A stretch of 64,000 nt of DNA, from NCBI GenBank assembly GCA_963855995.1, contig OY979717.1, forward strand, positions 50,161,744 through 50,225,743. The letters are read 5' to 3'. The DNA comes from Muricea muricata (Eukaryota > Cnidaria > Anthozoa > Malacalcyonacea > Plexauridae). The position numbers and the translations under genes are program-made. The notes below the pieces were generated by a model. It worked only from the letters and a program-made list of their open reading frames with translations, had not been told where the DNA came from and did not search any database. The first letter of the stretch is position 1, and every line of letters begins with the position of its first letter. Shown piece after piece: positions 9,571 to 43,552 of the stretch.

Positions 9571-9577
9571 GTTTATA
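9571..9577. repeat. Target-site duplication of the giant element, left copy
   Basis: GTTTATA lies immediately before CCTA, the outermost 4 bp of the giant element. The matching copy is at 43395-43401. Confidence 0.75.
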
Positions 9578-9581
9578 CCTA

Positions 9582-9773
9582 CAATCAAGTGCAAAAATTG
9601 TTGAGACAACAATATAATTTCCCCCCTCCCCCCTATTTCAATGTTGCTGTTATCGTACGAAGGCGAAAAACAATTAAAAACTTCCTCCAACATTGCCCAG
9701 GGGGGAAGGGGGGTGATTTGTTCTAAAATAACAAGTAAAATGTGAGAAGTCTCATAATTTTTGCACCTGATTG
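9582..9773. repeat. 192-bp TIR-bounded spacer (MITE-like), left copy
   Basis: Ends CAATCAAGTGCAAAAATT and AATTTTTGCACCTGATTG are inverted repeats. The interior holds an inverted pair of C/G-rich tracts (CCCCCCTTCCCCCC type) around AATGTTG motifs. The same 192-bp module separates the units of the right array. Confidence 0.85.
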
Positions 9774-10326
9774 TCTGGTAAATCATTTCACATAGTGCGT
9801 CCCAAATTTGAATTTTTATCAAATTACAGCTACAAACTTTACACAAGAATAAAGTATTTTTTCGTGTTTTCAGGAAATTATTTTTTTACGATGAAATATT
9901 TTCTATAGATAGAAACTATGCAAGGACGAGCGCGGTTAAATTCTAGTAACCTGGGTTCTAGTATAATTGGCGGGAAATTCGAATTTCATTACGTAATGTG
10001 TTTATGTATTGCTGTATGAAGCACAAAATACAGAAGCGAGTGGAACAATTTCTTTTGATAGCATTTTAATAGCAGAATATAACAAGAAAAGGGTTCGAAA
10101 GGTTAGTCCAAACAATTTTAATCTATTGTTTAACATTTAATCACATATGTATATATAATTAATGCCATTATATCTACAATTTCATTAACGTTAATACATT
10201 GAAATTTCAATCTATGAGAACAAAAATAAAAACCTAAGGCTAAGATTAAAGTATGAGTTATTTAACTGTTATAAATCAAATAACTTGGAATAACGCTAAT
10301 TGCGTCTCTTTCGCCGAAAATGAATC

Positions 10327-10548
10327 AGTCTGAAGATCGAAGACGATTTTAAGATTGAGCTTAAGACCAGTCAGGCACGAAGAACATATCTTGTCACCTA
10401 CAGTCAAGCAAATTTAAGCAAATTTCCGGCAAGACAGAGTTTTGGGGAGCAAGTTGTCGCGTATTTCAATGCTGGTTCGGGGAAAGTCGAAGTTGAACAC
10501 TGGGCATGTTGTCAGGAATCGCACGATACCACGGCCGGGGTACGTATG
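10327..10548 (+). pseudogene. Fragment resembling a widespread invertebrate Rep-like repeat protein
   Basis: An open stretch of 74 codons contains ARRTYLVTYSQ, LSKFPARQSFGE and VEVEHWACCQESH. I recall this motif string from repetitive invertebrate proteins in which a His-x-His (HUH-like) segment follows. Here the frame breaks before that segment, so catalytic capacity is absent. The family assignment is from memory and tentative. Confidence 0.45.
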
Positions 10549-10734
10549 TATGTATGTATGTACCAGAAGAAGAGCAAAAAGATATTTCGCCATGCCCACG
10601 CTGTTTCACAGAATTGGTTCTTCTAGATGAAGATTTTTAACTGCCTGTCTACTTTTTCCACCTTTTTAAATGCTTTAAAGCGATATGTTTGTCCGTGCTA
10701 TGATCCATGTACACAGTGTGTTCACCATGCATAC

Positions 10735-10990
10735 ATTACGCACACGTTACAACACGTAACACAACACGTTACACTACACGTTACAGTAAATTTGTAGAGA
10801 AATATTAAGAAGTATGTACTAAATATCACACGTCACACACGTTACACTTCACTTTTATTAAAAAGTATAATTTAATTTTCTTTTAAAAACATTGAGTGTA
10901 ACGTGTGCAATTTACTATCTAATTCTTATAATATTAGGTGTAACCTGTGGTGTAACGTGTGGTGTAACGTGGTGTAACGTGTTGGATCGT
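10735..10990. repeat. Bidirectional ACGTTACAC motif array, left copy
   Basis: About ten copies of ACGTTACAC or GTGTAACGT lie in two oppositely oriented groups separated by AT-rich DNA. They lie between the transposase and the Rep-like fragment of the Tc1-like body and resemble a bank of binding sites. Confidence 0.75.
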
Positions 10991-11198
10991 CAATTGAAGA
11001 AAAGAGAAACTGACATAAACATGTAAGAGAAATAAAGAGACACGAACGTTGAGTTATGGTTAAAATATATATTAATATATGGTGTTTTAAAACACAAAAT
11101 ATTGTAAAGATATTGCACAATGGAATGCTTCAGCAGTTACTGGTTATTGATCTGGTTACATTGGTAAGACAACGTTTGGGAGCAAGTGTTTTACTTAA

Positions 11199-12254
11199 TC
11201 AATACTTCAACCTTTGTCCTCGGTTTTCGATGATCGTTACGACGCGTTTTTTCATCGATTCAATGATTTTGTCAATAGTATTTTTAGGAAAGTTCATAAT
11301 CGTATCTTTAACTCTCTTTGAGAACTGACCAAAGTCCTCATATTTTATTTCCATTTCGAGCGCATCCTTCTCAAGCTGTTTTGACACTAAGTGAAACAGA
11401 TTTTCAATCGGGTTAAGGTCTGGGCTACGAGGTGGTATGGAGAACACCAATGCTCCAACGTCTTTGAATGCTCGCTTAGCGAGGGCGCTGTTTTGTACAG
11501 GGTCATCATCCTGAAGGAAGCGCATTACTATGGAATTAGCGCTTTTGGCAAATATCTGCGGGAAGTTCAGCCGAACGTATTCGGAAAAGGACTCTCCATT
11601 CATACGCTGAAAGTATTGGTCGCATGCTATTACCCCTTTATTATAAGCGATGGACACAAAAAAGTGAGCCGTTCTACCTTCCACACCAGCTTTTTTCCCT
11701 TTGCTTGTACAAGGTAGTGCAAGACCTTCTCCTCTTTTTCTCCACGCCAACAAATGACGTCCCATCTGTATAGAAGCTGATCCCAGATTTCCAGAAATCA
11801 TCCGGCAACACTGTCTCCTAATCTTTCGTGCAAATTGATGCCTGCGCGACATATCTTTTCGGGTCAGAAGGCCTTTCTTACGAGAATGTAAATAGCGATA
11901 GCCTTGCCTCTTTAATGCTCTTCGGATCGTCCACAAGGAAACATCAGGACTTATGCCTGCCACAGTTCGAAGTCTTGAAGCTGAAAACGACCCAATCGTT
12001 GCCCTACATTTGCGAAACTCTCTCACGAGATTTCGTTCATCTCGAACAGTTAACTTTCTCGGACGTCCTTCATTCTGTCGACACTTGTCAAAATTATCCT
12101 CTTCGTCAATTGATAATTTTGCGTGGCGGTAAATGGTAGCTCTACTATAGCTCGGAAATGCTTCTAACAGCTTCCTTCCTCTAACATGATTTTCCTGATA
12201 CATAAACCTCATATAAATGGAGGTTTCCTTCGGGACAAACTTCCTTGTCTTCAT
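11199..12254 (-). pseudogene. Tc1/IS630-type transposase, continuous ORF but catalytic core scrambled
   Basis: A 351-residue frame from ATG 12254. The N-terminus has paired-like helix-turn-helix segments (YSRATIYRHAKL; GRPRKLT near residue 65). The C-terminal half is a Tc1-type DDE domain, with FLQDDDP for the second Asp and RSPDLNPIEN for the terminal Glu. Residues about 148-166 are read out of the native frame: the DNA that spells FY-DGTSF in the array copies is read here as ASIQMGRH, so the first catalytic Asp is lost. Two extra bases near the RRQCC segment and a deletion before AWRKR compensate each other. The ORF is thus open but almost certainly inactive. Its normal role would be cut-and-paste transposition at TA. 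Confidence 0.8.
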
Positions 12255-13602
12255 TACCTGAGGTTATTATATTTAATTAGCGAATAATTTTGAACGCATG
12301 ATATATGAAGTCGGTTAATTGGGAAATAATTGTATGAAATGATTACGTAAACAGTAAGTGCATACTGATAACAGCTTAACTGATATATTATATGAAATCG
12401 AATATACTCCAAAGACTATTGTGCAATTATAACGAAATTATTGGACTCGCAAAACCACACGTGTTTTCGAATATTATTCTGAGGAAAACAAAATGTTATA
12501 CTATCTTGTTAAATTATGTAAATTTATAAAAGTACATTAAGCTTTAAATTTTTCCAAGTGCGCGTTTACTAGCTCTAAATCTTATAATCATATTTTTACA
12601 CAAGCGACGAAAACTTAGATATTTGCCTGTAAGATCACACCAGTGATTGTATTGATAATGACGTAATAATAACCCTACGATGACGTCATCAATCAATGTA
12701 AAGGATATATTTAGATTCATATTCTAAATGTACTGGACATGTTTACAAATACCAATAGACAGGATACTACGGTTTACACAGCTGGAAGTAGATAAATAAA
12801 CTCGATAACTTAATGAATTTTCTTACAGAAAAGCTGAAAATGCATAGAGACTGTAGGTAGCCCAAAAAAACATCAATTCAGTTTTACATTGAGGTCTGTG
12901 GCGTAGCGGTAGTTGCGTAATTGTATATATATATTTTAAAATAAGGTTGGCAACTAATTACAAATTATTACAATTTTACGATCTATCAACTCAAGAATAT
13001 CGACAAAAAACATTGAAAATATACCAGGTAACACAAAACAAACTACATAACTATAAAATTTGATATTTTTACTTGCTTCCTGGTAAGTTTTTTGGTTGCA
13101 AACGACTTGAAAAATAATGAAAATTTAGCAAAGTATTGCGTGTTGTTATATTTTTTTTCGCCGTGACGATGCTGGATGCTGATTACCTGATACTGGTTTT
13201 TGCTTCAAATGACGAAGCAGTGAATTCATTGGCTGCTGAAATTACTGAATTTGAGTTTATTGATTAGGAAAGCTTTCGACATACATTTTTTCACAAATGA
13301 AAGCGATAATAAATTAATTTTATTTGAACGACGTTTCGATGTCATCTTTACATCATTTTCAAGTTCATTTAAAGTTCGTTACGACTAGTGTGTTCATATG
13401 GCGAGTTCATGATTGCGTAAGCAAATAATTACATGAAAAGGGCGCGTGCAACTAAAACGCGGCAAAAATAAAGGCTTTAGGTATTACAATTATACTCTAC
13501 AATTATATTACATATATACACACACACATATATATATATATATTAATTAGTAATTAAACACATACATAACATACAAACATGCTAAACTATTAAATGTTTT
13601 GT

Positions 13603-14675
13603 TTAAACAAATACTTTAGCCTGAATCGAGTCAGACTGTGTGTTGAGACTGGGCTTGTGTTGTTTAATGTACAGCATCTCATACAGTAAGCAATCATACT
13701 TTCCCTGACACTTCCTTAAAACTGAGAAACAGTTTACGACCCTTTCAGCATCCTCACCATGCTTTTCTTTCACATGTCTCCCTATCGCTGAATTACGGTG
13801 TTCGTCGATGCGTTGGTGTAGATGGCGGCTCGTGTATCCGATATAATCCGCGTCGCACAGATCACATTCAAATTTGTAGACAACGTTTTGTTTGTTGACT
13901 AACGGTGGTTTAACTTCGGAAACAGCGAGGTCCTTTCCAATTTTTCGACTTGTATAAACGGGTTGGATTTTAGTACCGATTACATTCGACAGGTTTGCTA
14001 GTTGTTTCTTGACATCATCGGCTGATTTCTGGTCCTTGAAAGGCAAGGCAATTCGCAGAACTTTCTGTTTGCTGGATTCTGGATCTTGGTTGGTTGCTTT
14101 GTACTGTTGATCAATGAAGTTTGAAATAACTGAGTCAACCAGGCGCGGAGGGTATTTAAGTCGATCAAAGAGCGTCTTCAATCGTTCACACTCGTTGTTA
14201 AAATGGTGCCAGGAAGAGGAGAGACGATATGCCCTGTTAAGCATTGTTGTTATAAGCGATCGTTTATATCTCTTATCAACGTGGCTGTGATAATGGAGCA
14301 GGAGACCAGTGTTGGTTGGCTTGATGTATACTTTGGTTTCCAATCGACCATCTTTCTTCGTTATCTCCATACCCAGGAAGGGCATCTTACCCTCTTGCTC
14401 GACTTCCATAGTAAAATTTAAAGACGGATGACAATTGTTGAGGATTGATAGGAATGATTCTGCTGACTCAAGACTACTTTGTTTGGTTAATGTGTCATCA
14501 ACGTACCGATTGTCGAAGGAAGGGAGGTTGTTTGACTTAGATAACTTCTCCTCCAGAGAACACATGAATGTATTAGCCATTAGTGGACCAAGGGGGGAAC
14601 CCATTGCCACACCGTCAACTTGCTCGTAAAGTTTCCCATTGAATTGGAATAGCTGATGTTTCGTTGCCAAGGTTA
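13603..14675 (-). pseudogene. Penelope-like reverse transcriptase (partial) plus GIY-YIG endonuclease
   Basis: The frame carries RT motif VDGVAMGSPLGPLMANTF, the catalytic NRYVDDT box and the MPFLGMEI block, then a connecting region. A GIY-YIG nuclease follows (CDLCDADYIGYTSRHLHQRIDEH). This is the order typical of Penelope-like elements, which prime reverse transcription at endonuclease nicks. The formal ORF extends to 14745, but the codons before about 14675 are antisense GIY-YIG DNA. RT fingers and the N-terminus are lost, so it should be inactive. Confidence 0.85.
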
Positions 14676-14970
14676 ACAAAACGTTGTCTACAAATTTGAA
14701 TGTGATCTGTGCGACGCGGATTATATCGGATACACGAGCCGCCATCTACACCAACGCATCGACGAACACCGTAATTCAGCGATAGGGAGACATGTGAAAG
14801 AAAAGCATGGTGAGGATGCTGAAAGGGTCGTAAACTGTTTCTCAGTTTTAAGGAAGTGTCAGGGAAAGTATGATTGCTTACTGTATGAGATGCTGTACAT
14901 TAAACAACACAAGCCCAGTCTCAACACACAGTCTGACTCGATTCAGGCTAAAGTATTTGTTTAAACAAAA
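14676..14970 (+). pseudogene. Inverted duplicate of the GIY-YIG end
   Basis: Plus-strand copy of the last ~95 codons of the Penelope-like ORF with the same stop and 3' flank. It has no RT attached. It forms a head-to-head pair with the minus-strand frame. Confidence 0.8.
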
Positions 14971-15171
14971 CATTTAATAGTTTAGCATGTTTGTATGTTA
15001 TGTATGTGTTTAATTACTAATTAATATATATATATATATATGTGTGTGTATATATGTAATATAATTGTAGAGTATAATTGTAATACCTAAAGCCTTTATT
15101 TTTGCCGCGTTTTAGTTGCACGCGCCCTTTTCATGTAATTATTTGAGTAGTAATATAGGGGCCGATCAACC

Positions 15172-15252
15172 CTTTTTTTTAGGGGGGCGCAAGGGGGGCG
15201 CAAGGGGGGCGAGGGGGGCGCGCGAGGGGGGCGCACACATATTGAGGGGGCG
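15172..15252 (+). repeat. G-run cluster (G-quadruplex potential), left arm
   Basis: Seven runs of five or six G separated by CGCAA or CGC-type spacers, preceded by an eight-T tract. Mirrored as C-runs at 23545-23625. Confidence 0.85.
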
Positions 15253-15254
15253 CA

Positions 15255-15815
15255 CCCTCATTAGAATATCGTGCTCTGATTGGTCGAAAAGCGTACGTAC
15301 ACGCCGTGACGTACGCTATACCCGTGCTCTGATTGGTTAAAACAGCGTGACGTACACCCCGTGACGTACACCCCGTGACGTACGCCATAGCTATGCTCTG
15401 ATTGGTTAAACAGCGTACGTATGCCCCGTGACGTACGCCCTAGCCGCGCTCTAATTGGTTAAAACAGCGTACGTGCACCCCGTGACGTACGCTATAGTCG
15501 CGCTCTGATTGGTTAATGGTTGGCGTACGTATGCCCTATGCCCCGTGACGTACACCCCGTGACGTACGCCATAGCTATGCTCTGGTTGGTTAAAACAGCA
15601 TACGTACACCCCGTGACGTACACACCGTGACGTACACTATAGCTGTGCTCTGATTTGTTAAAACAGCGTACGTATGCCCCGTGACGTACGCTATAGCCGC
15701 GCTCTGGTTGGTTAAAACAGCGTACGTATACCCCGTGACGTACGCTATAGTCGCGCTCTGGTTGGTTAAAACAGTGTACGTATACCCCGTGACGTACGCC
15801 GTAGGCGCGCTCTTT
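15255..15815. repeat. Minisatellite with CCAAT and TGACGTAC motifs, left arm
   Basis: About ten units of 50-65 bp. Each has GCTCTGATTGGTTAAAAC (inverted CCAAT box), CGTACGTA and CCCCGTGACGTACGC (CRE-like TGACGTAC). It lies directly upstream of the zf-GRF frame, so a promoter role is plausible. The ORFs read through it are repeat artefacts. Confidence 0.85.
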
Positions 15816-16122
15816 TGCCGACATGATCTGATATGTCGCACCAAGAAAGTGAAGAAAGAGGGTCCTAATCAGGATCGTTTATTCTATTGTTGTCCTCATC
15901 CAAGAGAAAGTGCTTGTGACTTCTTTGAGTGGAAACCTGACGAAGACCCCCTTGAGCCAGGTTGTGTTTGTCTGTTTAGTATGCCACCATCTTACCGGTA
16001 TACAGTGAGAAAGACAGGGGAGACATTTACTAGTAAGGAAACGGATTCGTAAGAAAGCGTATGACGAATTCCTTCGGCAAAAGGAAATCGGTGAACTGAT
16101 TCAGGACTTACAGATCTACTAA
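15787..16122 (+). pseudogene. zf-GRF domain protein, full-length copy, frameshifted (left arm)
   Basis: The frame holds a GRF-type zinc ribbon: C...C, GPNQDRLFYCC, then C-DFFEW, the spacing of zf-GRF domains that bind single-stranded nucleic acid. It continues with WKPDEDPLEPGCVCLF. After TVRKTGETF the frame stops at 16052, but a shifted frame continues as KAYDEFLRQKEIGELIQDLQ to TAA at 16122, a helical tail. The start is unclear: the upstream frame runs into the minisatellite. It converges with the polymerase fragment on the other strand. Confidence 0.65.
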
Positions 16123-16223
16123 TAACTATAACAAAAGTGTGACTGTACATATAATTAAATGAACTTAAACATATAACTAAATATTGTTAAACACAAAACC
16201 AAATAAAATAGTTTTTGTAAAAG

Positions 16224-16345
16224 TCCCGTGGAGGGACAAATTGTGTCCCGCAAGTCCCGCAAAGTGATATTAGGTTTTGCAAAAGTCCCGTGGAGGGACA
16301 CAAAGTCCCGTGGAGGGACAAATTAAGTCCCGCGAGTCCCGTTTC
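16224..16345. repeat. GTCCCGTGGAGGGAC hairpin cluster
   Basis: Three copies of the 15-base hairpin plus extra GTCCCGC motifs lie between converging frames. Further clusters are at about 17108-17230, 18003-18125, 19785-19900, 20680-20795, 21575-21690 and 22462-22580. They might act as shared 3'-end structures. Confidence 0.8.
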
Positions 16346-16531
16346 AGCAAAACAAACCAATGCCCGCTCACGAACTCGATTCTATTATTGTCCAAAATCA
16401 CATATATCGTGTTGTCAACATTATTAATAAGTTTAATCGCCTAGGGGTAAAGTAAATAAGACACAGATGGTAATAACACGCACACATGTTAGTTGTTGAA
16501 AAGATATATTCACAAAATAGCTATTTACAGA

Positions 16532-16813
16532 TCAAATATCTAATGGAATGGTTGCAACACCGTCTTCCAAAACTTTACGTTTTGGATAAGAATAACTAAA
16601 AGCGTTTTTAACTTGAACATATGTGCACATTGTATTGTTCATAACTCTGAATCCCCTATTTACACCCGACCCACTACGTTTACTTAAAATTACATCTAAA
16701 TATTTATCTTTATTAATTTCATTATTTTTCTTGTTCACCCCTTTGCAACTAAATTTGTCTTTCCCATCCCCAAAACAATAATACGTTTTACTACATAGAC
16801 AAATTATCCCATC
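16532..16813 (-). pseudogene. DNA polymerase family B C-terminal fragment, unit 1
   Basis: The frame reads from the C/G-rich junction through LCSKTYYCF, DKFSC, SGSGVNRGFRV and YPKRKVLEDGVATIPLDI to a stop. This block matches, from memory, the C-terminus of DNA_pol_B_2 (protein-primed type) polymerases carried by invertebrate mobile elements. The catalytic palm is absent. Confidence 0.55.
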
Positions 16814-16817
16814 CCCG

Positions 16818-17010
16818 TGGAAACCTGACGAAGACCCCCTTGAGCCAGGTTGTGTTTGTCTGTTTAGTATGCCACCATCTTACCGATATACAGTGAGAAA
16901 GGCAGAGGAGACATTTACTTGTAAGGAAACGGATTCAAAAGAAAGCGTATGACGAATTCCTTCGGCAAAAGGAAATCGGTGAACTGATTCAGGACTTACA
17001 GATCTACTAA
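16818..17010 (+). pseudogene. zf-GRF C-terminal fragment, unit 2
   Basis: Begins at WKPDEDPLEPG, directly joined to the polymerase fragment of the neighbouring unit. It lacks the zinc-binding half. Confidence 0.6.
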
Positions 17011-17425
17011 TAACTATAACAAAAGTGTAACTGTACATATAATTAAATGAACTTAAACATATAACTAAATATTGTTAAACACAAAACCAAATAAAATAGT
17101 TTTTGTAAAAGTCCCGTGGAGGGACAAATTGTGTCCCGCAAGTCCCGCAAAGTGATATTAGGCTTTGCAAAAGTCCCGTGGAGGGACACAAAGTCCCGTG
17201 GAGGGACAAATTAAGTCCCGCGAGTCCCGTTTCAGCAAAACAAACCAATGCCCGCTCACGAACTCGATTCTATTATTGTCCAAAACCACATATATCGTGT
17301 TATATGATCCCCCGTGTTGTCAAGGTTTTATTCGCCTCGGGCAAAGTAAATAAGACACAGATGGTAATAACACGCACACATGTTAGTTGTTGAAAAGATA
17401 TATTCACAAAATAGCTATTTACAGA

Positions 17426-17708
17426 TCAAATATCTAATGGAATGGTTGCAACACCGTCTTCCAAAACTTTACGTTTTGGATAAAAATAACTAAAAGCGTT
17501 TTTAACTTGAACATATGTGCACATTGTATTGTTCATAACTCTGAATCCCCTATTTACACCCGACCCACTACGTTTACTTAAAATTACATCTAAATATTTA
17601 TCTTTATTAATAACATTATTCTTTTTGTTAACCCCTTTACAACTAAATTTGTCTTTCCCATCCCCAAAACAATAATACGTTTTACTACATAGACTAATTA
17701 TCCCATCC
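17426..17708 (-). pseudogene. DNA polymerase family B C-terminal fragment, unit 2
   Basis: Same block as unit 1 with small changes, e.g. NNVINK instead of NNEINK. The frame is damaged near its N-terminal side. Confidence 0.5.
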
Positions 17709-17710
17709 CC

Positions 17711-17903
17711 GTGGAAACCTGACGAAGACCCCCTTGAGCCAGGTTGTGTTTGTCTGTTTAGTATGCCACCATCTTACCGATATACAGTGAGAAAGACAGA
17801 GGAGACATTTACTTGTAAGGAAACGGATTCGTAAGAAAGCGTATGACGAATTCCTTCGGCAAAAGGAAATCGGTGAACTGATTCAGGACTTACAGGTCTA
17901 CTA
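17711..17903 (+). pseudogene. zf-GRF C-terminal fragment, unit 3
   Basis: Repeats the WKPDEDPLEPG-to-tail segment of unit 2 with a few substitutions. Confidence 0.6.
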
Positions 17904-18319
17904 ATAACTATAACAAAAGTGTAACTGTACATATAATTAAATGAACTTAAACATATAACTAAATATTGTTAAACACAAAACCAAATAAAATAGTTTTTGT
18001 AAAAGTCCCGTGGAGGGACAAATTGTGTCCCGCAAGTCCCGCAAAGTGATATTAGGTTTTGCAAAAGTCCCGTGGAGGGACACAAAGTCCCGTGGAGGGA
18101 CAAATTAAGTCCCGCGAGTCCCGTTTCAGCAACACAAACCAATGCCCGCTCACGAACTCGATTCTATTATTGTCCAAAATCACATATATCGTGTTATATG
18201 ATCCCCCGTGTTGTCAAGGTTTTATTCGCCTCGGGCAAAGTGAATAAGACACAGATGGTAATAACACGCACACATGTTAGTTGTTGAAAAGATATATTCA
18301 CAAAATAGCTATTTACAGA

Positions 18320-18646
18320 TCAAATATCTAATGGAATGGTTGCAACACCGTCTTCCAAAACTTTACGTTTTGGATAAAAATAACTAAAAGCGTTTTTAAC
18401 TTGAACATATGTGCACATTGTATTGTTCATAACTCTGAGTCCCCTATTTACACCCGACCCACTACGTTTACTTAAAATTACATCTAAATATTTATCTTTA
18501 TTAATAACATTATTCTTTTTGTTAACCCGTTTGCAACTAAATTTGTCTTTCCCATCTTCAAAACAATAATACGTTTTACTACATAGACTAATTATCCCAT
18601 TTCCTTCCCACTCTACTTTAAATAATCCCGGCGTTCTCTTATCCAT
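18320..18646 (-). pseudogene. DNA polymerase family B C-terminal fragment, longest copy
   Basis: This copy extends further N-terminally (TPGLFKVEWEGNGIISL) than the tandem copies, so it retains the pre-duplication junction. 108 codons are open. It borders the unique core of the palindrome. Confidence 0.6.
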
Positions 18647-18653
18647 CGACTAT

Positions 18654-19009
18654 TTGGTGGAAATTAGCCAGGAAAGCTATTCGCTATTGTTGGACCGTTT
18701 CTCTCATGTATTCGACCAAATCAGTCAACGAATAGTGAACGGTGAGGTATGTTGTGCGTTTGACCACCTAGGTATTTTCGAGACTTGTACTTATTACTAT
18801 TATGACTATTTAGGTGTGTGCTGAAAGTGGCGATGACGTTGAAGAAATGGTGCAATGTCTTCTCACATTGAATCAGGTATAGACCATATTGTTGGTCAAC
18901 TTGATCTGTGTAGTTCTTGCTCTTATTACTCTTTCTTATTTTTTTTTTTTTGCAGGAGACCCAAGATGAAGCGGACGCTAGTCAAGCAAGCGAGGACGAA
19001 GTGCATGAG
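18654..19009 (+). CDS. Exon-like segments at the palindrome core, unknown protein
   Basis: Three phase-0 segments are bounded by good splice signals: up to 18746 (GAG|GTATGT); 18814-18876 (TTTAG| ... CAG|GTATAG); 18956-19009 (polypyrimidine TGCAG| ... GAG|GTAAAT). A fourth opens at 19111 after TTTTTTTCAG. Together they would encode an acidic, Glu/Asp-rich stretch (ESGDDVEEM, EDEVHE, SENEESGEEN). I do not recognise it. It probably belongs to the N-terminal side of the element's own gene. The boundaries are inferred from consensus only. Confidence 0.35.
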
Positions 19010-19125
19010 GTAAATAATTTTAGAGGTTTAAAATTCTAGTCATGGTTTACTTATCTTTCCGGGCTTGTGATATATATGTGTAGCATTTTTTTTTCCTCCG
19101 TTTTTTTCAGGCGAGTGAGAATGAG

Positions 19126-19330
19126 GAAAGTGGGGAAGAAAATACAATTAAAGGTTCACCCATTAGAAAAATTGCAAGAAAAACTGGAACTTCATCTCAT
19201 GGAACTACCTGTTCTGGGCTTCAATTCCGGAAAGTATGATATCAACGCCGCTAAAAACCCTTTCTTTGCCCACCTCATGAAACATGAGCAAGTTAAGTTT
19301 GTGATAAAAAGAAACAACAGCCACATGTGT
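19126..19330 (+). pseudogene. DNA polymerase family B exonuclease-domain fragment
   Basis: The frame has ELPVLGFNSGKYDINAAK, which fits the ExoII motif (N-x2-3-F/Y-D) of family B polymerases, followed by VKFVIKRNNSHMCLKT, the segment that follows it in DNA_pol_B_2 proteins. It then joins directly to the C-terminal block (from about 19340) with a frame break. The polymerase palm and thumb are deleted. Confidence 0.6.
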
Positions 19331-19584
19331 CTCAAGACAATTTTGAAGATGGGAAAGACAAATTTAGTTGCAAACGGGTTAACAAAAAGAATAATGTTAT
19401 TAATAAAGATAAATATTTAGATGTAATTTTAAGTAAACGTAGTGGGTCGGGTGTAAATAGGGGACTCAGAATTATGAACAATACAATGTGCACATATGTT
19501 CAAGTTAAAAACGCTTTTAGTTATTTTTATCCAAAACGTAAAGTTTTGGAAGACGGTGTTGCAACCATTCCATTAGATATTTGA
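19327..19584 (+). pseudogene. DNA polymerase family B C-terminal fragment, right unit 1
   Basis: Mirror of the 18320-18560 copy around about 18953. It is the extra unit that the right arm has over the left, and is open from about 19333 to its stop. Confidence 0.55.
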
Positions 19585-20000
19585 TCTGTAAATAGCTATT
19601 TTGTGAATATATCTTTTCAACAACTAACATGTGTGCGTGTTATTACCATCTGTGTCTTATTCACTTTGCCCGAGGCGAATAAAACCTTGACAACACGGGG
19701 GATCATATAACACGATATATGTGATTTTGGACAATAATAGAATCGAGTTCGTGAGCGGGCATTGGTTTGTGTTGCTGAAACGGGACTCGCGGGACTTAAT
19801 TTGTCCCTCCACGGGACTTTGTGTCCCTCCACGGGACTTTTGCAAAACCTAATATCACTTTGCGGGACTTGCGGGACACAATTTGTCCCTCCACGGGACT
19901 TTTACAAAAACTATTTTATTTGGTTTTGTGTTTAACAATATTTAGTTATATGTTTAAGTTCATTTAATTATATGTACAGTTACACTTTTGTTATAGTTAT

Positions 20001-20193
20001 TAGTAGATCTGTAAGTCCTGAATCAGTTCACCGATTTCCTTTTGCCGAAGGAATTCGTCATACGCTTTCTTACGAATCCGTTTCCTTACAAGTAAATGTC
20101 TTCTCTGTCTTTCTCACTGTATATCGGTAAGATGGTGGCATACTAAACAGACAAACACAACCTGACTCAAGGGGGTCTTCGTCAGGTTTCCAC
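20001..20193 (-). pseudogene. zf-GRF C-terminal fragment, right unit
   Basis: Inverted copy of the WKPDEDPL-to-tail segment. It reads GTCAGGTTGTG where other copies have GCCAGGTTGTG. Confidence 0.55.
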
Positions 20194-20478
20194 GGGGATG
20201 GGATAATTAGTCTATGTAGTAAAACGTATTAATGTTTTGGGGATGGGAAAGACAAATTTAGTTGCAAAGGGGTTAACAAAAAGAGTAATGTTATTAATAA
20301 AGATAAATATTTAGATGTAATTTTAAGTAAACGTAGTGGGTCGGGTGTAAATAGGGGATTCAGAGTTATGAACAATACAATGTGCACATATGTTCAAGTT
20401 AAAAACGCTTTTAGTTATTTTTATCCAAAACGTAAAGTTTTGGAAGACGGTGTTGCAACCATTCCATTAGATATTTGA
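20190..20478 (+). pseudogene. DNA polymerase family B C-terminal fragment, right unit 2
   Basis: Contains a TAA (near 20230) where the other copies have TAT TGT, so this copy has its own stop mutation. Confidence 0.55.
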
Positions 20479-20894
20479 TCTGTAAATAGCTATTTTGTGA
20501 ATATATCTTTTCAACAACTAACATGTGTGCGTGTTATTACCATCTGTGTCTTATTCACTTTGCCCGAGGCGAATAAAACCTTGACAACACGGGGGATCAT
20601 ATAACACGATATATGTGATTTTGGACAATAATAGAATCGAGTTCGTGAGCGGGCATTGGTTTGTGTTGCTGAAACGGGACTCGCGGGACTTAATTTGTCC
20701 CTCCACGGGACTTTGTGTCCCTCCACGGGACTTTTGCAAAACCTAATATCACTTTGCGGGACTTGCGGGACACAATTTGTCCCTCCACGGGACTTTTACA
20801 AAAACTATTTTATTTGGTTTTGTGTTTAACAATATTTAGTTATATGTTTAAGTTCATTTAATTATATGTACAGTTACACTTTTGTTATAGTTAT

Positions 20895-21087: not shown

Positions 21088-21089
21088 GG

Positions 21090-21980: not shown

Positions 21981-21984
21981 CGGG

Positions 21985-23540: not shown

Positions 23541-23544
23541 GGGT

Positions 23545-33500: not shown

Positions 33501-33793
33501 AAAACGCTATCAAAAGAAATTTTTCCACTCGCTTCTGTATTTTGTACTTCATACAGCAATACATAAACACATTAGGTAATGAAATTCGAATTTCCCGCCA
33601 ATTATACTAGAACCCAGGTTACTAGAATTTAACCGCGCTCGTCCTTGTATAGTTTCTATCTATAGAAAATATTTCATCGTAAAAAATAATTTCCTGAAAA
33701 CACGAAAAAATACTTTATTCTTATGTAAAGTTTGTAGCTGTAATTTGATAAAAATTCAAATTTGGGACGCACTATGTGAAATGACTTACCAGA
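30596..33793 (+). mobile_element. Array unit 3
   Basis: Spacer 30596-30787 shares the TTATCTTAAAAC variant with unit 2. The body has a private AGACAGTAAATTG (32639) instead of AGATAGTAAATTG. Rep-like fragment 33016-33237 (minus). Confidence 0.9.
31306..32358 (+). pseudogene. Broken transposase, copy 3
   Basis: Same two breaks as copy 1. Confidence 0.8.
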
Positions 33794-36700
33794 CAATCAG
33801 GTGCAAAAATTATGAGACTTCTCACATTTTACTTGTTATTTTAAAACAAATCACCCCCCTTCCCCCCTGGGCAATGTTGGAGGAAATTTTTAATTGTTTT
33901 TCGCCTTCGTACGATAACAGCAACATTGAAATAGGGGGGAGGGGGGAAATTATATTGTTGTCTCAAGAATTTTTGCACTTGATTGTCTCTATGCATTCAC
34001 AGCTTTTCTGTAAGAAAATTCATTAAGTTATCGAGTTTATTTATCTACTTCCAGCTGTGTAAACCGTAGTATCCTGTCTATTGGTATTTGTAAACATGTC
34101 CAGTATATTTAGAATATGAATCTAAATATATCCTTTACATTGATTGATGACGTCATCGTAGGGTTATTATTACGTCATTATGAGTACAATCACTGGTGTG
34201 ATCTTACAGGTAAATATCTAAGTTTTCGTCGTGTAAAAATACATAGCATTACAAAATAGTATAACATTTTGTTTTCCTCAGAATAATATTCGGAAACACG
34301 TGTGGTTTTGCGAGTCCAATAATTTCGTTATAATTGCACAATAGTCTTTGGAGTATATTCGATTTCATATAATAACAGTTAAGCTGTTATCAGTATGCAC
34401 TTACTGTTTGCGTAATCATTTCATACAATTATTTCCCAATTAACCGACTTTATATATCATGCGTTCAAAATTATTCGCTAATTAAATATAATAACCTCAG
34501 GTAATGAAGACAAGGAAGTTTGTCCCGAAGGAAACCTCCATTTATATGAGGTTTATGTATCAGAAAAATCATGTTAGAGGAAGGAAGCTGTTAGACGCAT
34601 TTCCGAACTATAGTAAAGCTACCATTTACCGACACGCAAAATTATCAATTGACGAAGAGGATAGTTTTGACAATGTAGACAGAATGAAGGTCGTCCGAGA
34701 AAGTTAACTGTTCGAGATGAACGAAATCTTGTGAGAGAGTTTCGCAAATGTAGGGCAACGATTGGGTCGTTTTCAGCTTCAAGACTTCGAACTGCGGCAG
34801 GCATAAGTCCTGATGTTTCCTTGTGGACGATCCGAAGAGCATTAAAGAGGCAAGGCTATCACTATTTACATTCTCATAAGAAAGGCCTTCTGACCCGAAA
34901 AGATATGTCGCGCAGGCATCAATTTGCACGAAAGATTAGGAGACTGTTGCTGGATGATTTCTGTAAATCTGGGATCAGCTTCTATATAGATGGGACGTCA
35001 TTTGTTGGCGTGGAGAAAAAGAAGAGAAGGTCTTGCACTACCTTGTACAAGCAAAGGGAAAAAAGCTGGTGTGGAAGGTAGAACGGCTCACTTTTTTGTG
35101 TCCATCGCTTATAATAAAGGGGTAATAGCATGCGACCAATACTTTCAGCGTATGAATGGAGAGTCCTTTTCCGAATACGTTCGGCTGAACTTCCCGCAGA
35201 TATTTGCCAAAAGCGCTAATTCCATAGTAATGCGCTTCCTTCAGGATGGTGACCCTGTACAAAACAGCGCCCTCGCTAAGCGAGCATTCAAAGACGTTGG
35301 AGCATTGGTGTTCTCCATACCACCTCGTAGCCCAGACCTTAACCCGATTGAAAATCTGTTTCACTTAGTGTCAAAACAGCTTGAGAAGGATGCGCTCGAA
35401 ATGGAAATAAAATATGAGGACTTTGATCAGTTCTCAAAGAGAGTTAAAGATACGATTATGAACTTTCCTAAAAATACTATAGACAAAATAATTGAATCGA
35501 TGAAAAAACGCGTCGTAACGATCATCGAAAACCGAAGACGAAGGTTGAAGTATTGATTAAATAAAACACTTGCTCCCAAACGTTGTCTTACCAATGTAAC
35601 CAGATCAATAACCAGTAACTGCTGAAGCATTCCATTGTGCAATATCTTTACAATATTATGTGTTTTAAAACACCATATATTAATATATATTTTAACCATA
35701 ACTCAACGCTCGTGTCTCTTTATTTCTCTTACATGTTTATGTCAGTTTCTCTTTTCTTCAATTGACGATCCAACACGTTACACCACACGTTACACCACAC
35801 GTTACACCACAGGTTACACCTAATATTATAAGAATTAGATAGTAAATTGCACACGTTACACACGTTGCACTCAATCTTTTTAAAAGAGAACTAAATTATA
35901 GTTTTTAATAAAAATGAAGTGTAACGTGTGTAACGTGTGATATTTAGTATATATTTCTTAATATTTCTCTACAAATTTGCTGTAACGTGTAGTGTAACGT
36001 GTTGTGTTACGTGTTGTAACGTGTGCGTAATGTAAGCATGATGAACACACTGTGTACATGGATCATAGCACGGACAAACATATCGCTTTAAAGCATTTAA
36101 AAATTTGGAAAAAGTAGACAGGCAGCTAAAAATCTTCATCTAGAAGAACCAATTCTGTGAAACAGCGTGGGCATGGCGAAATATCTTTTTGCTCTTCTTC
36201 TGGTGCATACATACATACGTACCCCAGCCGTGGTATCGTGCGATTCCTGACAACATGCCCAGTGTTCAACTTCGACTTTCCCCGAACCAGCATTGAAATA
36301 CGCGACAACTTGCTCCCCAAAACTCTGTCTTGCCGGAAATTTGCTTAAATCTGCTTGACTGTAGGTGACAAGATATGTTCTTCGTGCCTGACTGGTCTTA
36401 AGCTCAATCTTAAAATCGTCTTCGATCTTCAGACTGATTCATTTTCTGCGAAAGAGACGCAATTAGCGTTATTCCAAGTTATTTGATTTATAACAGTTAA
36501 ATAACCCATACTTTAATCTTAGCCTTAGGTTTTCATTTTTGTTCTCATAGATTGAAATTTCAATGCATTAACGTTAATGAAATTGTAGATATAATGGCAT
36601 TAATTATATATACATATGTGATTATTAAAATGTTAAACAATAGATTAAAATTGTTTGGACTAACCTTTCGAACCCTTTTCTTGTTATATTCTGCTATCAA

Positions 36701-36991
36701 AACGCTATCAAAAGAAATTTTTCCACTCGCTTCTGTATTTTGTACTTCATACAGCAATACATAAACACATTAGGTAATGAAATTCGAATTTCCCGCCAAT
36801 TATACTAGAACCCAGGTTACTAGAATTTAACCGCGCTCGTCCTTGTATAGTTTCTATCTATAGAAAATATTTCATCGTAAAAAATAATTTCCTGAAAACA
36901 CGAAAAAATACTTTATTCTTATGTAAAGTTTGTAGCTGTAATTTGATAAAAATTCAAATTTGGGACGCACTATGTGAAATGACTTACCAGA
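33794..36991 (+). mobile_element. Array unit 4
   Basis: Spacer 33794-33985 has TTATTTT. The body ends ...TTACCAGA directly before the short CTG junction. Rep-like fragment 36214-36435 (minus). Confidence 0.9.
34504..35556 (+). pseudogene. Broken transposase, copy 4
   Basis: Same two breaks as copy 1. Confidence 0.8.
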
Positions 36992-39900
36992 CTGTCTCTA
37001 TGCATTCACAGCTTTTCTGTAAGAAAATTCATTAAGTTATCGAGTTTATTTATCTACTTCCAGCTGTGTAAACCGTAGTATCCTGTCTATTGGTATTTGT
37101 AAACATGTCCAGTATATTTAGAATATGAATCTAAATATATCCTTTACATTGATTGATGACGTCATCGTAGGGTTATTATTACGTCATTATGAGTACAATC
37201 ACTGGTGTGATCTTACAGGTAAATATCTAAGTTTTCGTCGTGTAAAAATACATAGCATTACAAAATAGTATAACATTTTGTTTTCCTCAGAATAATATTC
37301 GGAAACACGTGTGGTTTTGCGAGTCCAATAATTTCGTTATAATTGCACAATAGTCTTTGGAGTATATTCGATTTCATATAATAACAGTTAAGCTGTTATC
37401 AGTATGCACTTACTGTTTGCGTAATCATTTCATACAATTATTTCCCAATTAACCGACTTTATATATCATGCGTTCAAAATTATTCGCTAATTAAATATAA
37501 TAACCTCAGGTAATGAAGACAAGGAAGTTTGTCCCGAAGGAAACCTCCATTTATATGAGGTTTATGTATCAGAAAAATCATGTTAGAGGAAGGAAGCTGT
37601 TAGACGCATTTCCGAACTATAGTAAAGCTACCATTTACCGACACGCAAAATTATCAATTGACGAAGAGGATAGTTTTGACAATGTAGACAGAATGAAGGT
37701 CGTCCGAGAAAGTTAACTGTTCGAGATGAACGAAATCTTGTGAGAGAGTTTCGCAAATGTAGGGCAACGATTGGGTCGTTTTCAGCTTCAAGACTTCGAA
37801 CTGCGGCAGGCATAAGTCCTGATGTTTCCTTGTGGACGATCCGAAGAGCATTAAAGAGGCAAGGCTATCACTATTTACATTCTCATAAGAAAGGCCTTCT
37901 GACCCGAAAAGATATGTCGCGCAGGCATCAATTTGCACGAAAGATTAGGAGACTGTTGCTGGATGATTTCTGTAAATCTGGGATCAGCTTCTATATAGAT
38001 GGGACGTCATTTGTTGGCGTGGAGAAAAAGAAGAGAAGGTCTTGCACTACCTTGTACAAGCAAAGGGAAAAAAGCTGGTGTGGAAGGTAGAACGGCTCAC
38101 TTTTTTGTGTCCATCGCTTATAATAAAGGGGTAATAGCATGCGACCAATACTTTCAGCGTATGAATGGAGAGTCCTTTTCCGAATACGTTCGGCTGAACT
38201 TCCCGCAGATATTTGCCAAAAGCGCTAATTCCATAGTAATGCGCTTCCTTCAGGATGGTGACCCTGTACAAAACAGCGCCCTCGCTAAGCGAGCATTCAA
38301 AGACGTTGGAGCATTGGTGTTCTCCATACCACCTCGTAGCCCAGACCTTAACCCGATTGAAAATCTGTTTCACTTAGTGTCAAAACAGCTTGAGAAGGAT
38401 GCGCTCGAAATGGAAATAAAATATGAGGACTTTGATCAGTTCTCAAAGAGAGTTAAAGATACGATTATGAACTTTCCTAAAAATACTATAGACAAAATAA
38501 TTGAATCGATGAAAAAACGCGTCGTAACGATCATCGAAAACCGAAGACGAAGGTTGAAGTATTGATTAAATAAAACACTTGCTCCCAAACGTTGTCTTAC
38601 CAATGTAACCAGATCAATAACCAGTAACTGCTGAAGCATTCCATTGTGCAATATCTTTACAATATTATGTGTTTTAAAACACCATATATTAATATATATT
38701 TTAACCATAACTCAACGCTCGTGTCTCTTTATTTCTCTTACATGTTTATGTCAGTTTCTCTTTTCTTCAATTGACGATCCAACACGTTACACCACACGTT
38801 ACACCACACGTTACACCACAGGTTACACCTAATATTATAAGAATTAGATAGTAAATTGCACACGTTACACACGTTGCACTCAATCTTTTTAAAAGAGAAC
38901 TAAATTATAGTTTTTAATAAAAATGAAGTGTAACGTGTGTAACGTGTGATATTTAGTATATATTTCTTAATATTTCTCTACAAATTTGCTGTAACGTGTA
39001 GTGTAACGTGTTGTGTTACGTGTTGTAACGTGTGCGTAATGTAAGCATGATGAACACACTGTGTACATGGATCATAGCACGGACAAACATATCGCTTTAA
39101 AGCATTTAAAAATTTGGAAAAAGTAGACAGGCAGCTAAAAATCTTCATCTAGAAGAACCAATTCTGTGAAACAGCGTGGGCATGGCGAAATATCTTTTTG
39201 CTCTTCTTCTGGTGCATACATACATACGTACCCCAGCCGTGGTATCGTGCGATTCCTGACAACATGCCCAGTGTTCAACTTCGACTTTCCCCGAACCAGC
39301 ATTGAAATACGCGACAACTTGCTCCCCAAAACTCTGTCTTGCCGGAAATTTGCTTAAATCTGCTTGACTGTAGGTGACAAGATATGTTCTTCGTGCCTGA
39401 CTGGTCTTAAGCTCAATCTTAAAATCGTCTTCGATCTTCAGACTGATTCATTTTCTGCGAAAGAGACGCAATTAGCGTTATTCCAAGTTATTTGATTTAT
39501 AACAGTTAAATAACCCATACTTTAATCTTAGCCTTAGGTTTTCATTTTTGTTCTCATAGATTGAAATTTCAATGCATTAACGTTAATGAAATTGTAGATA
39601 TAATGGCATTAATTATATATACATATGTGATTATTAAAATGTTAAACAATAGATTAAAATTGTTTGGACTAACCTTTCGAACCCTTTTCTTGTTATATTC
39701 TGCTATCAAAACGCTATCAAAAGAAATTTTTCCACTCGCTTCTGTATTTTGTACTTCATACAGCAATACATAAACACATTAGGTAATGAAATTCGAATTT
39801 CCCGCCAATTATACTAGAACCCAGGTTACTAGAATTTAACCGCGCTCGTCCTTGTATAGTTTCTATCTATAGAAAATATTTCATCGTAAAAAATAATTTC

Positions 39901-40000
39901 CTGAAAACACGAAAAAATACTTTATTCTTATGTAAAGTTTGTAGCTGTAATTTGATAAAAATTCAAATTTGGGACGCACTATGTGAAATGACTTACCAGA
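36992..40000 (+). mobile_element. Array unit 5, lacking the spacer
   Basis: Only CTG (36992-36994) separates it from unit 4, giving ACCAGA-CTG-TCTCTATG. Rep-like fragment 39223-39444 (minus). Confidence 0.9.
37513..38565 (+). pseudogene. Broken transposase, copy 5
   Basis: Same two breaks as copy 1. Confidence 0.8.
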
Positions 40001-43000
40001 CAATCAGGTGCAAAAATTATGAGACTTCTCACATTTTACTTGTTATTTTAAAACAAATCACCCCCCTTCCCCCCTGGGCAATGTTGGAGGAAATTTTTAA
40101 TTGTTTTTCGCCTTCGTACGATAACAGCAACATTGAAATAGGGGGGAGGGGGGAAATTATATTGTTGTCTCAAGAATTTTTGCACTTGATTGTCTCTATG
40201 CATTCACAGCTTTTCTGTAAGAAAATTCATTAAGTTATCGAGTTTATTTATCTACTTCCAGCTGTGTAAACCGTAGTATCCTGTCTATTGGTATTTGTAA
40301 ACATGTCCAGTATATTTAGAATATGAATCTAAATATATCCTTTACATTGATTGATGACGTCATCGTAGGGTTATTATTACGTCATTATGAGTACAATCAC
40401 TGGTGTGATCTTACAGGTAAATATCTAAGTTTTCGTCGTGTAAAAATACATAGCATTACAAAATAGTATAACATTTTGTTTTCCTCAGAATAATATTCGG
40501 AAACACGTGTGGTTTTGCGAGTCCAATAATTTCGTTATAATTGCACAATAGTCTTTGGAGTATATTCGATTTCATATAATAACAGTTAAGCTGTTATCAG
40601 TATGCACTTACTGTTTGCGTAATCATTTCATACAATTATTTCCCAATTAACCGACTTTATATATCATGCGTTCAAAATTATTCGCTAATTAAATATAATA
40701 ACCTCAGGTAATGAAGACAAGGAAGTTTGTCCCGAAGGAAACCTCCATTTATATGAGGTTTATGTATCAGAAAAATCATGTTAGAGGAAGGAAGCTGTTA
40801 GACGCATTTCCGAACTATAGTAAAGCTACCATTTACCGACACGCAAAATTATCAATTGACGAAGAGGATAGTTTTGACAATGTAGACAGAATGAAGGTCG
40901 TCCGAGAAAGTTAACTGTTCGAGATGAACGAAATCTTGTGAGAGAGTTTCGCAAATGTAGGGCAACGATTGGGTCGTTTTCAGCTTCAAGACTTCGAACT
41001 GCGGCAGGCATAAGTCCTGATGTTTCCTTGTGGACGATCCGAAGAGCATTAAAGAGGCAAGGCTATCACTATTTACATTCTCATAAGAAAGGCCTTCTGA
41101 CCCGAAAAGATATGTCGCGCAGGCATCAATTTGCACGAAAGATTAGGAGACTGTTGCTGGATGATTTCTGTAAATCTGGGATCAGCTTCTATATAGATGG
41201 GACGTCATTTGTTGGCGTGGAGAAAAAGAAGAGAAGGTCTTGCACTACCTTGTACAAGCAAAGGGAAAAAAGCTGGTGTGGAAGGTAGAACGGCTCACTT
41301 TTTTGTGTCCATCGCTTATAATAAAGGGGTAATAGCATGCGACCAATACTTTCAGCGTATGAATGGAGAGTCCTTTTCCGAATACGTTCGGCTGAACTTC
41401 CCGCAGATATTTGCCAAAAGCGCTAATTCCATAGTAATGCGCTTCCTTCAGGATGGTGACCCTGTACAAAACAGCGCCCTCGCTAAGCGAGCATTCAAAG
41501 ACGTTGGAGCATTGGTGTTCTCCATACCACCTCGTAGCCCAGACCTTAACCCGATTGAAAATCTGTTTCACTTAGTGTCAAAACAGCTTGAGAAGGATGC
41601 GCTCGAAATGGAAATAAAATATGAGGACTTTGATCAGTTCTCAAAGAGAGTTAAAGATACGATTATGAACTTTCCTAAAAATACTATAGACAAAATAATT
41701 GAATCGATGAAAAAACGCGTCGTAACGATCATCGAAAACCGAAGACGAAGGTTGAAGTATTGATTAAATAAAACACTTGCTCCCAAACGTTGTCTTACCA
41801 ATGTAACCAGATCAATAACCAGTAACTGCTGAAGCATTCCATTGTGCAATATCTTTACAATATTATGTGTTTTAAAACACCATATATTAATATATATTTT
41901 AACCATAACTCAACGCTCGTGTCTCTTTATTTCTCTTACATGTTTATGTCAGTTTCTCTTTTCTTCAATTGACGATCCAACACGTTACACCACACGTTAC
42001 ACCACACGTTACACCACAGGTTACACCTAATATTATAAGAATTAGATAGTAAATTGCACACGTTACACACGTTGCACTCAATCTTTTTAAAAGAGAACTA
42101 AATTATAGTTTTTAATAAAAATGAAGTGTAACGTGTGTAACGTGTGATATTTAGTATATATTTCTTAATATTTCTCTACAAATTTGCTGTAACGTGTAGT
42201 GTAACGTGTTGTGTTACGTGTTGTAACGTGTGCGTAATGTAAGCATGATGAACACACTGTGTACATGGATCATAGCACGGACAAACATATCGCTTTAAAG
42301 CATTTAAAAATTTGGAAAAAGTAGACAGGCAGCTAAAAATCTTCATCTAGAAGAACCAATTCTGTGAAACAGCGTGGGCATGGCGAAATATCTTTTTGCT
42401 CTTCTTCTGGTGCATACATACATACGTACCCCAGCCGTGGTATCGTGCGATTCCTGACAACATGCCCAGTGTTCAACTTCGACTTTCCCCGAACCAGCAT
42501 TGAAATACGCGACAACTTGCTCCCCAAAACTCTGTCTTGCCGGAAATTTGCTTAAATCTGCTTGACTGTAGGTGACAAGATATGTTCTTCGTGCCTGACT
42601 GGTCTTAAGCTCAATCTTAAAATCGTCTTCGATCTTCAGACTGATTCATTTTCTGCGAAAGAGACGCAATTAGCGTTATTCCAAGTTATTTGATTTATAA
42701 CAGTTAAATAACCCATACTTTAATCTTAGCCTTAGGTTTTCATTTTTGTTCTCATAGATTGAAATTTCAATGCATTAACGTTAATGAAATTGTAGATATA
42801 ATGGCATTAATTATATATACATATGTGATTATTAAAATGTTAAACAATAGATTAAAATTGTTTGGACTAACCTTTCGAACCCTTTTCTTGTTATATTCTG
42901 CTATCAAAACGCTATCAAAAGAAATTTTTCCACTCGCTTCTGTATTTTGTACTTCATACAGCAATACATAAACACATTAGGTAATGAAATTCGAATTTCC

Positions 43001-43198
43001 CGCCAATTATACTAGAACCCAGGTTACTAGAATTTAACCGCGCTCGTCCTTGTATAGTTTCTATCTATAGAAAATATTTCATCGTAAAAAATAATTTCCT
43101 GAAAACACGAAAAAATACTTTATTCTTATGTAAAGTTTGTAGCTGTAATTTGATAAAAATTCAAATTTGGGACGCACTATGTGAAATGACTTACCAGA
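40001..43198 (+). mobile_element. Array unit 6
   Basis: Spacer 40001-40192, body 40193-43198. Rep-like fragment 42421-42642 (minus). Confidence 0.9.
40711..41763 (+). pseudogene. Broken transposase, copy 6
   Basis: Same two breaks as copy 1. Confidence 0.8.
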
Positions 43199-43390
43199 CA
43201 ATCAGGTGCAAAAATTATGAGACTTCTCACATTTTACTTGTTATTTTAAAACAAATCACCCCCCTTCCCCCCTGGGCAATGTTGGAGGAAATTTTTAATT
43301 GTTTTTCGCCTTCGTACGATAACAGCAACATTGAAATAGGGGGGAGGGGGGAAATTATATTGTTGTCTCAAGAATTTTTGCACTTGATTG
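43199..43390. repeat. 192-bp spacer closing the array
   Basis: Its right tip TTGATTG abuts TA (43391), the outer target dinucleotide. Confidence 0.9.
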
Positions 43391-43552
43391 TAGGGTTTAT
43401 ATGGAGGTAGGGTGACCCTAGCGGAAGGGTTACCCTAGTAAACGAATTACCCTACTACAATATGTTTTAAAGGAAGCGTTTACATGTGCGCTAGGGTTAC
43501 CCTAGCAGTAGGGTTATCCTATCAAATAGATAGGGTTACGCTTTGGCCTGTA
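43391..43552. repeat. Cluster of TAGGGTNACCCTA palindromic motifs
   Basis: About six copies or half-copies of CTAGGGTTACCCTAG-like motifs lie within 160 bp. The motif resembles two facing TAGGGT units but is not a telomeric tandem repeat. Confidence 0.7.
43395..43401. repeat. Target-site duplication of the giant element, right copy
   Basis: GTTTATA follows TAGG, the last bases of the giant element's restored tip. Confidence 0.75.

Follow-up and report, generated by a model that had tools for sequence, protein, structure and literature searches.

The stretch of DNA considered here, hereafter the window, comprises 64,000 nucleotides of the Muricea muricata genome (C2:50161744-50225743). Between window positions 9571 and 43401 it holds an outer foldback element with CCTAGG tips (O), an inner foldback element (F) with parts of a zf-GRF gene and of a family-B DNA polymerase (PolB) gene, and Tc1-like elements in both tips of O, namely a single copy (E) on the left and a tandem array on the right. 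A preliminary description of the window had taken the whole block, once freed of Tc1 insertions, for one giant foldback transposon. Our genome-wide searches were run on the 453-Mb assembly of 74 contigs (C1, C2 and so on); Rfam and tRNA scans returned no matches. The features of the locus, including open reading frames (ORFs), are as follows.

9571..9577, +, GTTTATA, the 7-bp target duplication on the left side of O
9578..9581, +, CC and TA, outermost bases of the left O tip CCTAGG, which is cut at TA
9582..12853, -, E, a Tc1-like element lodged in the left O tip, with a transposase frame at 11202-12263 (-)
12854..13431, +, left O arm (beginning TAGGTAGCCC), about 93% like its right counterpart
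13422..15145, -, inner part of O with a Penelope-like ORF at 13603-14745 (-), from Pfam
15140..15145, +, TATTTG, the 6-bp target duplication on the left side of F
15146..23652, no strand, F, a Polinton-derived foldback with tips AGTAG[T/C]AATATAGGGGCCGAT and arms 15146-18600/20198-23652
15295..15813, +, left 54-bp subterminal repeats of F; mirror at 22985-23503
15816..16049, +, 3' part of the zf-GRF gene in the left arm of F, from Pfam and alignment
15929..18600, no strand, three tandem units of 888-894 bp (GRF 3' end plus PolB 3' end) in the left arm of F
18323..18649, -, C-terminal PolB fragment of 109 amino acids (aa), from alignment
19038..19341, +, N-terminal PolB fragment in the F spacer, from alignment; by its motif we take it to be the exonuclease region
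19341..22869, no strand, four tandem units of 888-894 bp in the right arm of F
23653..23658, +, TATTTG again, on the right side of F
23659..24199, -, right O arm as far as GGGCTACC followed by TA
24200..43390, +, tandem array m(Mm)n in the right O tip, made up of six Tc1-like units
43391..43394, +, TA and GG, outermost bases of the right O tip
43395..43401, +, GTTTATA again, on the right side of O

The sequences at the left junction follow one another as CC, TA, 9582-12853, TA and GGTAGCCC, and those at the right junction as GGGCTACC, TA, 24200-43390, TA and GG. Just as the preliminary description had it, removal of 9582-12853 and 24200-43390, each with one TA, restores CCTAGGTAGCCC tips that directly abut GTTTATA at 9571-9577 and 43395-43401. 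Its Tc1 insertions at both tips are indeed TA insertions, although the right-hand one is an array of six units and not one Tc1. Its near-perfect palindrome of about 11.3 kb keeps the foldback form but turns out to be composite: there are two palindromes, the inner arms (15146-18600/20198-23652) being 99.8% alike and the outer arms about 93%, with a Penelope-type reverse transcriptase (RT)/GIY-YIG piece on the left side only. The Penelope-like ORF passes the cut-off for GIY-YIG and stays below it for RVT_1, and the inverted ends of this part of O (13422-13892/14675-15145) are 99.8% alike. The tips of F lie at the very step between the 99.8% and the 93% arms, with TATTTG on both flanks, and the F site is uninterrupted in the left arm of O, which represents a paralogous empty site in cis.

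Searched with at most one mismatch, CCTAGGTAGCCCAAAAA gave 135 forward and 140 reverse matches across the genome, and its reversed control 0/0. An exact 7-bp duplication flanks 16 of the 19 inverted O tip pairs fetched outside the window, and the remaining three (L010, L022 and L025) differ at one base in 7, as read from their flanks; by base composition, 7 bp would match at one given position with a probability of about 1e-4. The duplication length claimed for the window copy is thus that of the family. The fetched pairs span 105 bp to 15.2 kb, 12 of the 19 copies being 105-858 bp long, and the 20 duplications including the window's share the palindromic consensus GTTNAAC. O is a real transposable element family, and its tips are family-wide.

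Two side observations concern elements of this kind. L025 (C1:21321219-21324131) contains a long ORF that resembles RT/GIY-YIG by eye, with no Pfam match over the cut-off. At window positions 53781-54567 there is a 787-bp element with tips CATAGGCGGCCC and GTTTCAA as its 7-bp duplication; it seems to represent a second such family.

Overall, the locus is very probably a stack of nested insertions: the P-superfamily-like O, the Polinton-derived F inside it, and Tc1-like elements in the tips of O. The layers belong to known kinds, and the new variants are found among their relatives. O is the oldest layer, because F sits in its arm and the Tc1-like elements in its tips. Beside the borders, duplications, independent copies and gene content of relatives, all of which are observed, we infer an order of events. 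Initially, O, a non-autonomous P-superfamily-like foldback with CCTAGGTAGCCC tips and a Penelope-like fragment in its middle, would have entered GTTTATA and created the 7-bp duplication. Then F (15146-23652) would have entered the right arm of O at TATTTG, with a 6-bp duplication as in Polinton integration; F would presumably be mobilised in trans, with proteins supplied by its 14-kb relatives. Tc1-like elements preferring CTAGG would likewise have come after O, either before or after F, and have entered the TA of the palindromic tip CCTAGG on both sides, and the right-hand insertion would later have turned into a tandem array.

The inner element and its Polinton relatives

F is one of many copies. 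Its tips, with at most two mismatches, gave 92 + 95 matches genome-wide (control 0/0) and elsewhere occur in different flanks with different duplications. Outside the window, 16 of 20 fetched F-type tip pairs carry an exact 6-bp duplication; of the ten among them that were picked for enclosing an inverted PolB pair, nine do so and one has a 7-bp match. A query with the PolB C-terminal fragment, for which 150 of 384 candidate places were scored, revealed at least 41 PolB pairs in -/+ order within 6 kb, the window pair not counted, with a distance of 2786-3238 bp in 38 of these. PolB frames of at least 450 aa number 24, and none stands in an inverted pair. Sixteen pieces around eight F copies fell mostly inside the tandem units, two of them having no match, and no F end was readable in them.

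Parts of two 14-kb relatives were read; both have F tips, which in one of them show 2 mismatches, next to exact 6-bp duplications. One has a PolB ORF over PF03175 (26.0 bits against a cut-off of 25.8), and the other has GRF (5.5e-24), rve (5.5e-14) and Chromo (7e-11). The F arm aligns with the GRF end (95%) and the PolB 3' end (92%) of these relatives, and the F spacer with the N-terminal part of PolB (87.5%); therefore, F is a Polinton deleted between GRF and PolB and inversely duplicated. It retains one Polinton end, in the order tip, subterminal repeats, GRF 3' part and PolB 3' part. Both gene identities given in the preliminary description stand. The zf-GRF of the window matches PF06839 at 5.5e-14, and the PolB fragments, with no Pfam match of their own, are identified through the 92% and 87.5% alignments to a relative whose ORF passes PF03175. 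No match to the window PolB fragment was found in the PDB, a phage set or viral contigs. Of the Polinton hallmarks, the 6-bp duplication is found at F itself, which holds GRF and PolB parts only; the retroviral-type integrase is found in a relative, and PolB in the window fragments and the relative's ORF, from which protein priming is predicted.

Public proteins include 1445 homologues of the PolB 3' ORF; several of the 120 listed are named DNA-directed DNA polymerase or bear PF03175, and named PolB relatives among the matches listed come from corals, an anemone, echinoderms and a lancelet. Across the genome PF03175 has at least 178 matches (82 of 503 candidates scored), none of those listed lying inside the 14-kb relatives at C1:21631543 or C1:77127138. 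Some further details may be mentioned here. The 54-bp repeats just inside the F tips carry CGTGACGTACG and ATTGGTTAA motifs, perhaps binding sites. The spacer stretch 18650-19100 shows, by eye, exon-like segments with GT...AG borders and has no Pfam match over the cut-off. The PolB 3' ORF of a Polinton relative (L115:43-1515) resembles Vsr mismatch endonucleases (PDB 1odg, E-value 0.0025; PF03852, E-value 0.097, below the cut-off).

How the arms of F stay alike is a separate question. In seven two-armed copies, the arms diverge by 0.42% within a copy and by 0.85% between copies, a closeness reached in 1 of 20000 shuffles of the pairing; the C1c, C2b and C1d arms were left out on account of short or incomplete alignments. 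In the six copies oriented by the spacer (C14, with a different spacer, was set aside), same-arm and opposite-arm distances are both 0.904%. Opposite arms are closer within than between copies, unlike what plain inheritance would give, and we therefore conclude that in each F lineage one arm is copied anew from the other. Such copying would result from protein-primed synthesis on a folded single strand, and to this hairpin step we assign an about even chance. Ordinary gene conversion after insertion is a serious competitor, if somewhat short of even: it likewise predicts less divergence within than between copies. It would, however, have to homogenise the arms in every lineage to equalise same-arm and opposite-arm distances, and it would have been incomplete, with changes in one arm only at 40 of the 63 variable sites; neither point decides the matter. 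Foldback Polintons whose arms were seemingly copied from each other are possibly new; no report of foldback Polintons was found in titles and abstract openings, a search that did not cover subscription journals and Repbase.

The palindrome and the array come from one assembly, so that one might take both for assembly artefacts. This is very unlikely, since F occurs independently at many loci, where its duplications differ, and a second array of the same plan, judged by its end positions, lies at C1:37942236-37968282.

Still less credible is one giant CCTAGG-tipped foldback transposon with PolB and GRF as cargo, whether a new superfamily or captured Polinton genes. Symmetric tips and a duplication do surround the whole block, and the preliminary description was right that, with CCTAGG tips, 7-bp duplications and foldback form, the outer element as a whole is no Polinton. 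However, the PolB/GRF block has tips and a 6-bp duplication of its own, recurring elsewhere in other flanks, and it recurs as the inverted pairs counted above. The CCTAGG tip is seen in 0 of the 16 pieces around eight inverted PolB pairs (most pieces lie inside F), and the 12 short CCTAGG copies could not accommodate PolB. We rejected the single element as already contradicted by the separate tips and duplication of F: the Polinton part arrived as a separate insertion, flanked by a 6-bp duplication as at 16 of 20 other pairs, and is not captured cargo. A new PolB superfamily is no longer needed, and nested insertions can imitate one element.

Relatives of the outer element

The left arm of O is 95.9% (over 293 nucleotides, nt) and 96.2% (over 390 nt) identical to the arms of a 15.2-kb element (L012/L013), which encodes a PIF1 helicase (PF05970) and a transposase fragment with TNP-like_RNaseH_C (PF21789). 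In two more copies (12.9 and 13.0 kb), CCTAGGTAGC tips are accompanied by the 7-bp duplications ATATAAA and CTATTAC; in the copy on C3, the inverted arms are about 2.3 kb long and PIF1 is matched at 2.3e-26. These foldback elements with CCTAGG tips lie at C3:430071-442967, C1:15613973-15626932 and C2:15448211-15463452. Genome-wide, transposase matches group into 66 loci and those of the helicase-linked protein into 68, the latter query being a 407-aa frame that adjoins the PIF1 domains in L012 and whose homologues include PF05970 proteins. At 54 of the 66 transposase loci the helicase-linked protein is found within 10 kb (0.2 expected); 53 of these pairs are convergent and one divergent, and 12 loci have no partner.

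PF21789 passes its cut-off in relatives with the same tips as O, reaches an E-value of 0.01 or better in 22 of 22 aligned transposase homologues, and is borne by 90 of the 120 homologues listed (189 found). The only PDB match of the transposase profile is 6p5a, the Drosophila P transposase (E-value 0.039; 0.2 with the single sequence), and the profile found no match in viral contigs. Through PF21789 and 6p5a, the transposase of these relatives appears to be P-type, on modest evidence. Regarding membership of O in the P superfamily, a target duplication of 7 bp, within the expected 7 or 8, is found at O itself and the P-type transposase in its same-tip relatives only. Six apparent co-occurrences across public homologue lists suggest that the transposase/helicase-linked pair is present in other organisms; one PIF1 relative among public proteins comes from a gorgonian.

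Several points weigh against the P-type and Polinton assignments. The window copy of O encodes no transposase. The P-type call leans mainly on PF21789 and on the weak 6p5a match just given; other P domains (HTH, RNase H N) remained below the cut-off in the transposase of O relatives, and the joined-exon transposase query passed the PF21789 cut-off only narrowly (24.7 against 24) and found no P match in the PDB. On the Polinton side, an exact 6-bp duplication is missing from 4 of the 20 F-type pairs (one, L075/076, has a 7-bp match, and three have none), PF03175 is barely passed by the Polinton PolB, and no capsid, protease or packaging ATPase was recognised, five further ORFs of L116 having no Pfam match over the cut-off and one relative being read in part.

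On balance, we lean slightly towards an undescribed lineage of P-superfamily giants (about 13-15 kb, with foldback arms, CCTAGG tips and 7-bp duplications) that carries a conserved convergent PIF1-type helicase, together with Polinton foldback derivatives that spread as hairpin-copied palindromes. A P-type family bearing a helicase gene is possibly new; no report of P elements with PIF1 was found in the same literature, with the same sources left uncovered. If true, the PIF1-type partner hints at a replication or strand-unwinding step in P-type transposition, and we know of no such step in cut-and-paste P elements. Two testable systems are thereby exposed, a P-type transposase paired with a PIF1-helicase gene and a palindromic Polinton family with the mark of arm copying within a molecule; both bear on the origin and persistence of long-armed foldback transposons.

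Tc1-like elements and the remainder of the window

The transposase of E passes the cut-off for DDE_3 (2.1e-7), and HTH_Tnp_Tc3_2 stays below it. All ten paired E copies elsewhere read CTA-E-TAGG, none with a 7-bp duplication; this set was partly chosen for CC, and the search pattern for the ends included TA. E therefore shows both the TA duplication (10/10 pairs) and the DDE_3 transposase of Tc1/mariner elements. CC precedes TA at 19 of 29 exact outer ends of E, three of the 19 lying in the window. The array units are 3.0-3.2 kb each, with TA at the outer ends of the array only; among its first four M units there are 0-2 differences over 3006 nt, so the array is young. Tc1-like terminal blocks of about 190 bp, which have inverted ends of their own, recur in direct order as solo blocks, m-M-m elements and arrays, in an LTR-like (long terminal repeat) manner; other places of this plan are C1:95380921-95384396 and the solo blocks C2:15529824-15530017 and C15:10531747-10531942.

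Both O tips were hit because the Tc1-like elements prefer CTAGG and the tip of O is CCTAGG. This preference, and not coincidence, best explains the symmetric insertions; chance was rejected, as the preference accounts for both. Matches to GATTGTAGGTAGCCC with at most one mismatch do not exceed the control (21 vs 18), and exact ones number five, the window's included, with about 0.8 expected by length alone. Five places with the junction GAYTG-TA-GGTAGCCC were fetched, four being the exact matches outside the window and one of the 16 one-mismatch matches, and the pattern itself fixes the junction. All of them run on as O-type tips of several subfamilies, with joined ends that are Tc1-like by eye, which suggests that O-type tips were struck repeatedly by Tc1-like insertions. 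In L142-L146, O-type tips are joined at TA to ends starting CAATC or CAGTC, unlike E; these are perhaps other Tc1-like families favouring CTAGG.

That GTTTATA was made by the Tc1-like elements or the array, the true tip of E being CCTACAATC with a 7-bp duplication, is scarcely tenable, common as CCTACAATC is (CCTACAATCARGTGCAAA has 12 + 16 exact matches, control 0/0): the E copies elsewhere have no 7-bp duplication outside CCTA (0/10), CC is missing from 10 of the 29 exact outer ends, and the 7-bp duplication at CCTAGG is seen in O copies that have no E. We therefore rejected GTTTATA as the array's own duplication.

The rest of the window contains a sulfotransferase ORF (4491-5405), a kinase fragment (49187-49633), ankyrin repeats (61301-61618) and a 56-bp tandem array (76-831).

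Comparison with known systems

E resembles Tc1/mariner elements in its TA duplication and DDE_3 transposase and differs from them in the CTAGG preference and in the direct-order terminal blocks of about 190 bp that give LTR-like solos and arrays; a literature search for such forms gave nothing on point by title and abstract.

Polinton/Maverick elements make 6-bp duplications and have AG... tips. F shares both, together with PolB and, in the 14-kb same-tip relatives, an integrase of rve plus chromodomain. Unlike them, it is shorter, palindromic and internally deleted, with 888-894-bp tandem units in its arms. In symmetric defective adenovirus genomes, one end of a protein-primed linear genome is inversely duplicated; a literature search on these gave nothing on point by title and abstract. 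F resembles them in the inverted duplication of one end, but it is chromosomal and multi-copy.

Relatives of O share with P elements and Pdre2 the C-terminal transposase signature (PF21789, 6p5a), and neither is known to carry a helicase gene. Pdre2, the zebrafish THAP9 element, has 8-bp duplications and 13-bp terminal inverted repeats in the part of the source consulted (PMC10983969); O differs from it in its 7-bp duplications. The closest likeness in plan is to Galileo, a Drosophila P-superfamily foldback with long terminal repeats and 7-bp duplications of consensus GTANTAC, as given in passages of two papers (PMC3573991, PMC4168063). With PF21789 in same-tip relatives and Galileo already published, the undescribed superfamily of the preliminary description falls away. 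O differs from Galileo in its CCTAGGTAGCCC tips and in the convergent PIF1-helicase gene of its relatives, of which those passages make no mention. It shares with Galileo, as described there, foldback-like terminal repeats, a palindromic consensus of the 7-bp duplications (GTTNAAC here, GTANTAC there), fragments of other transposons in the arms and, here in relatives, a P-type transposase, a likeness of plan only.

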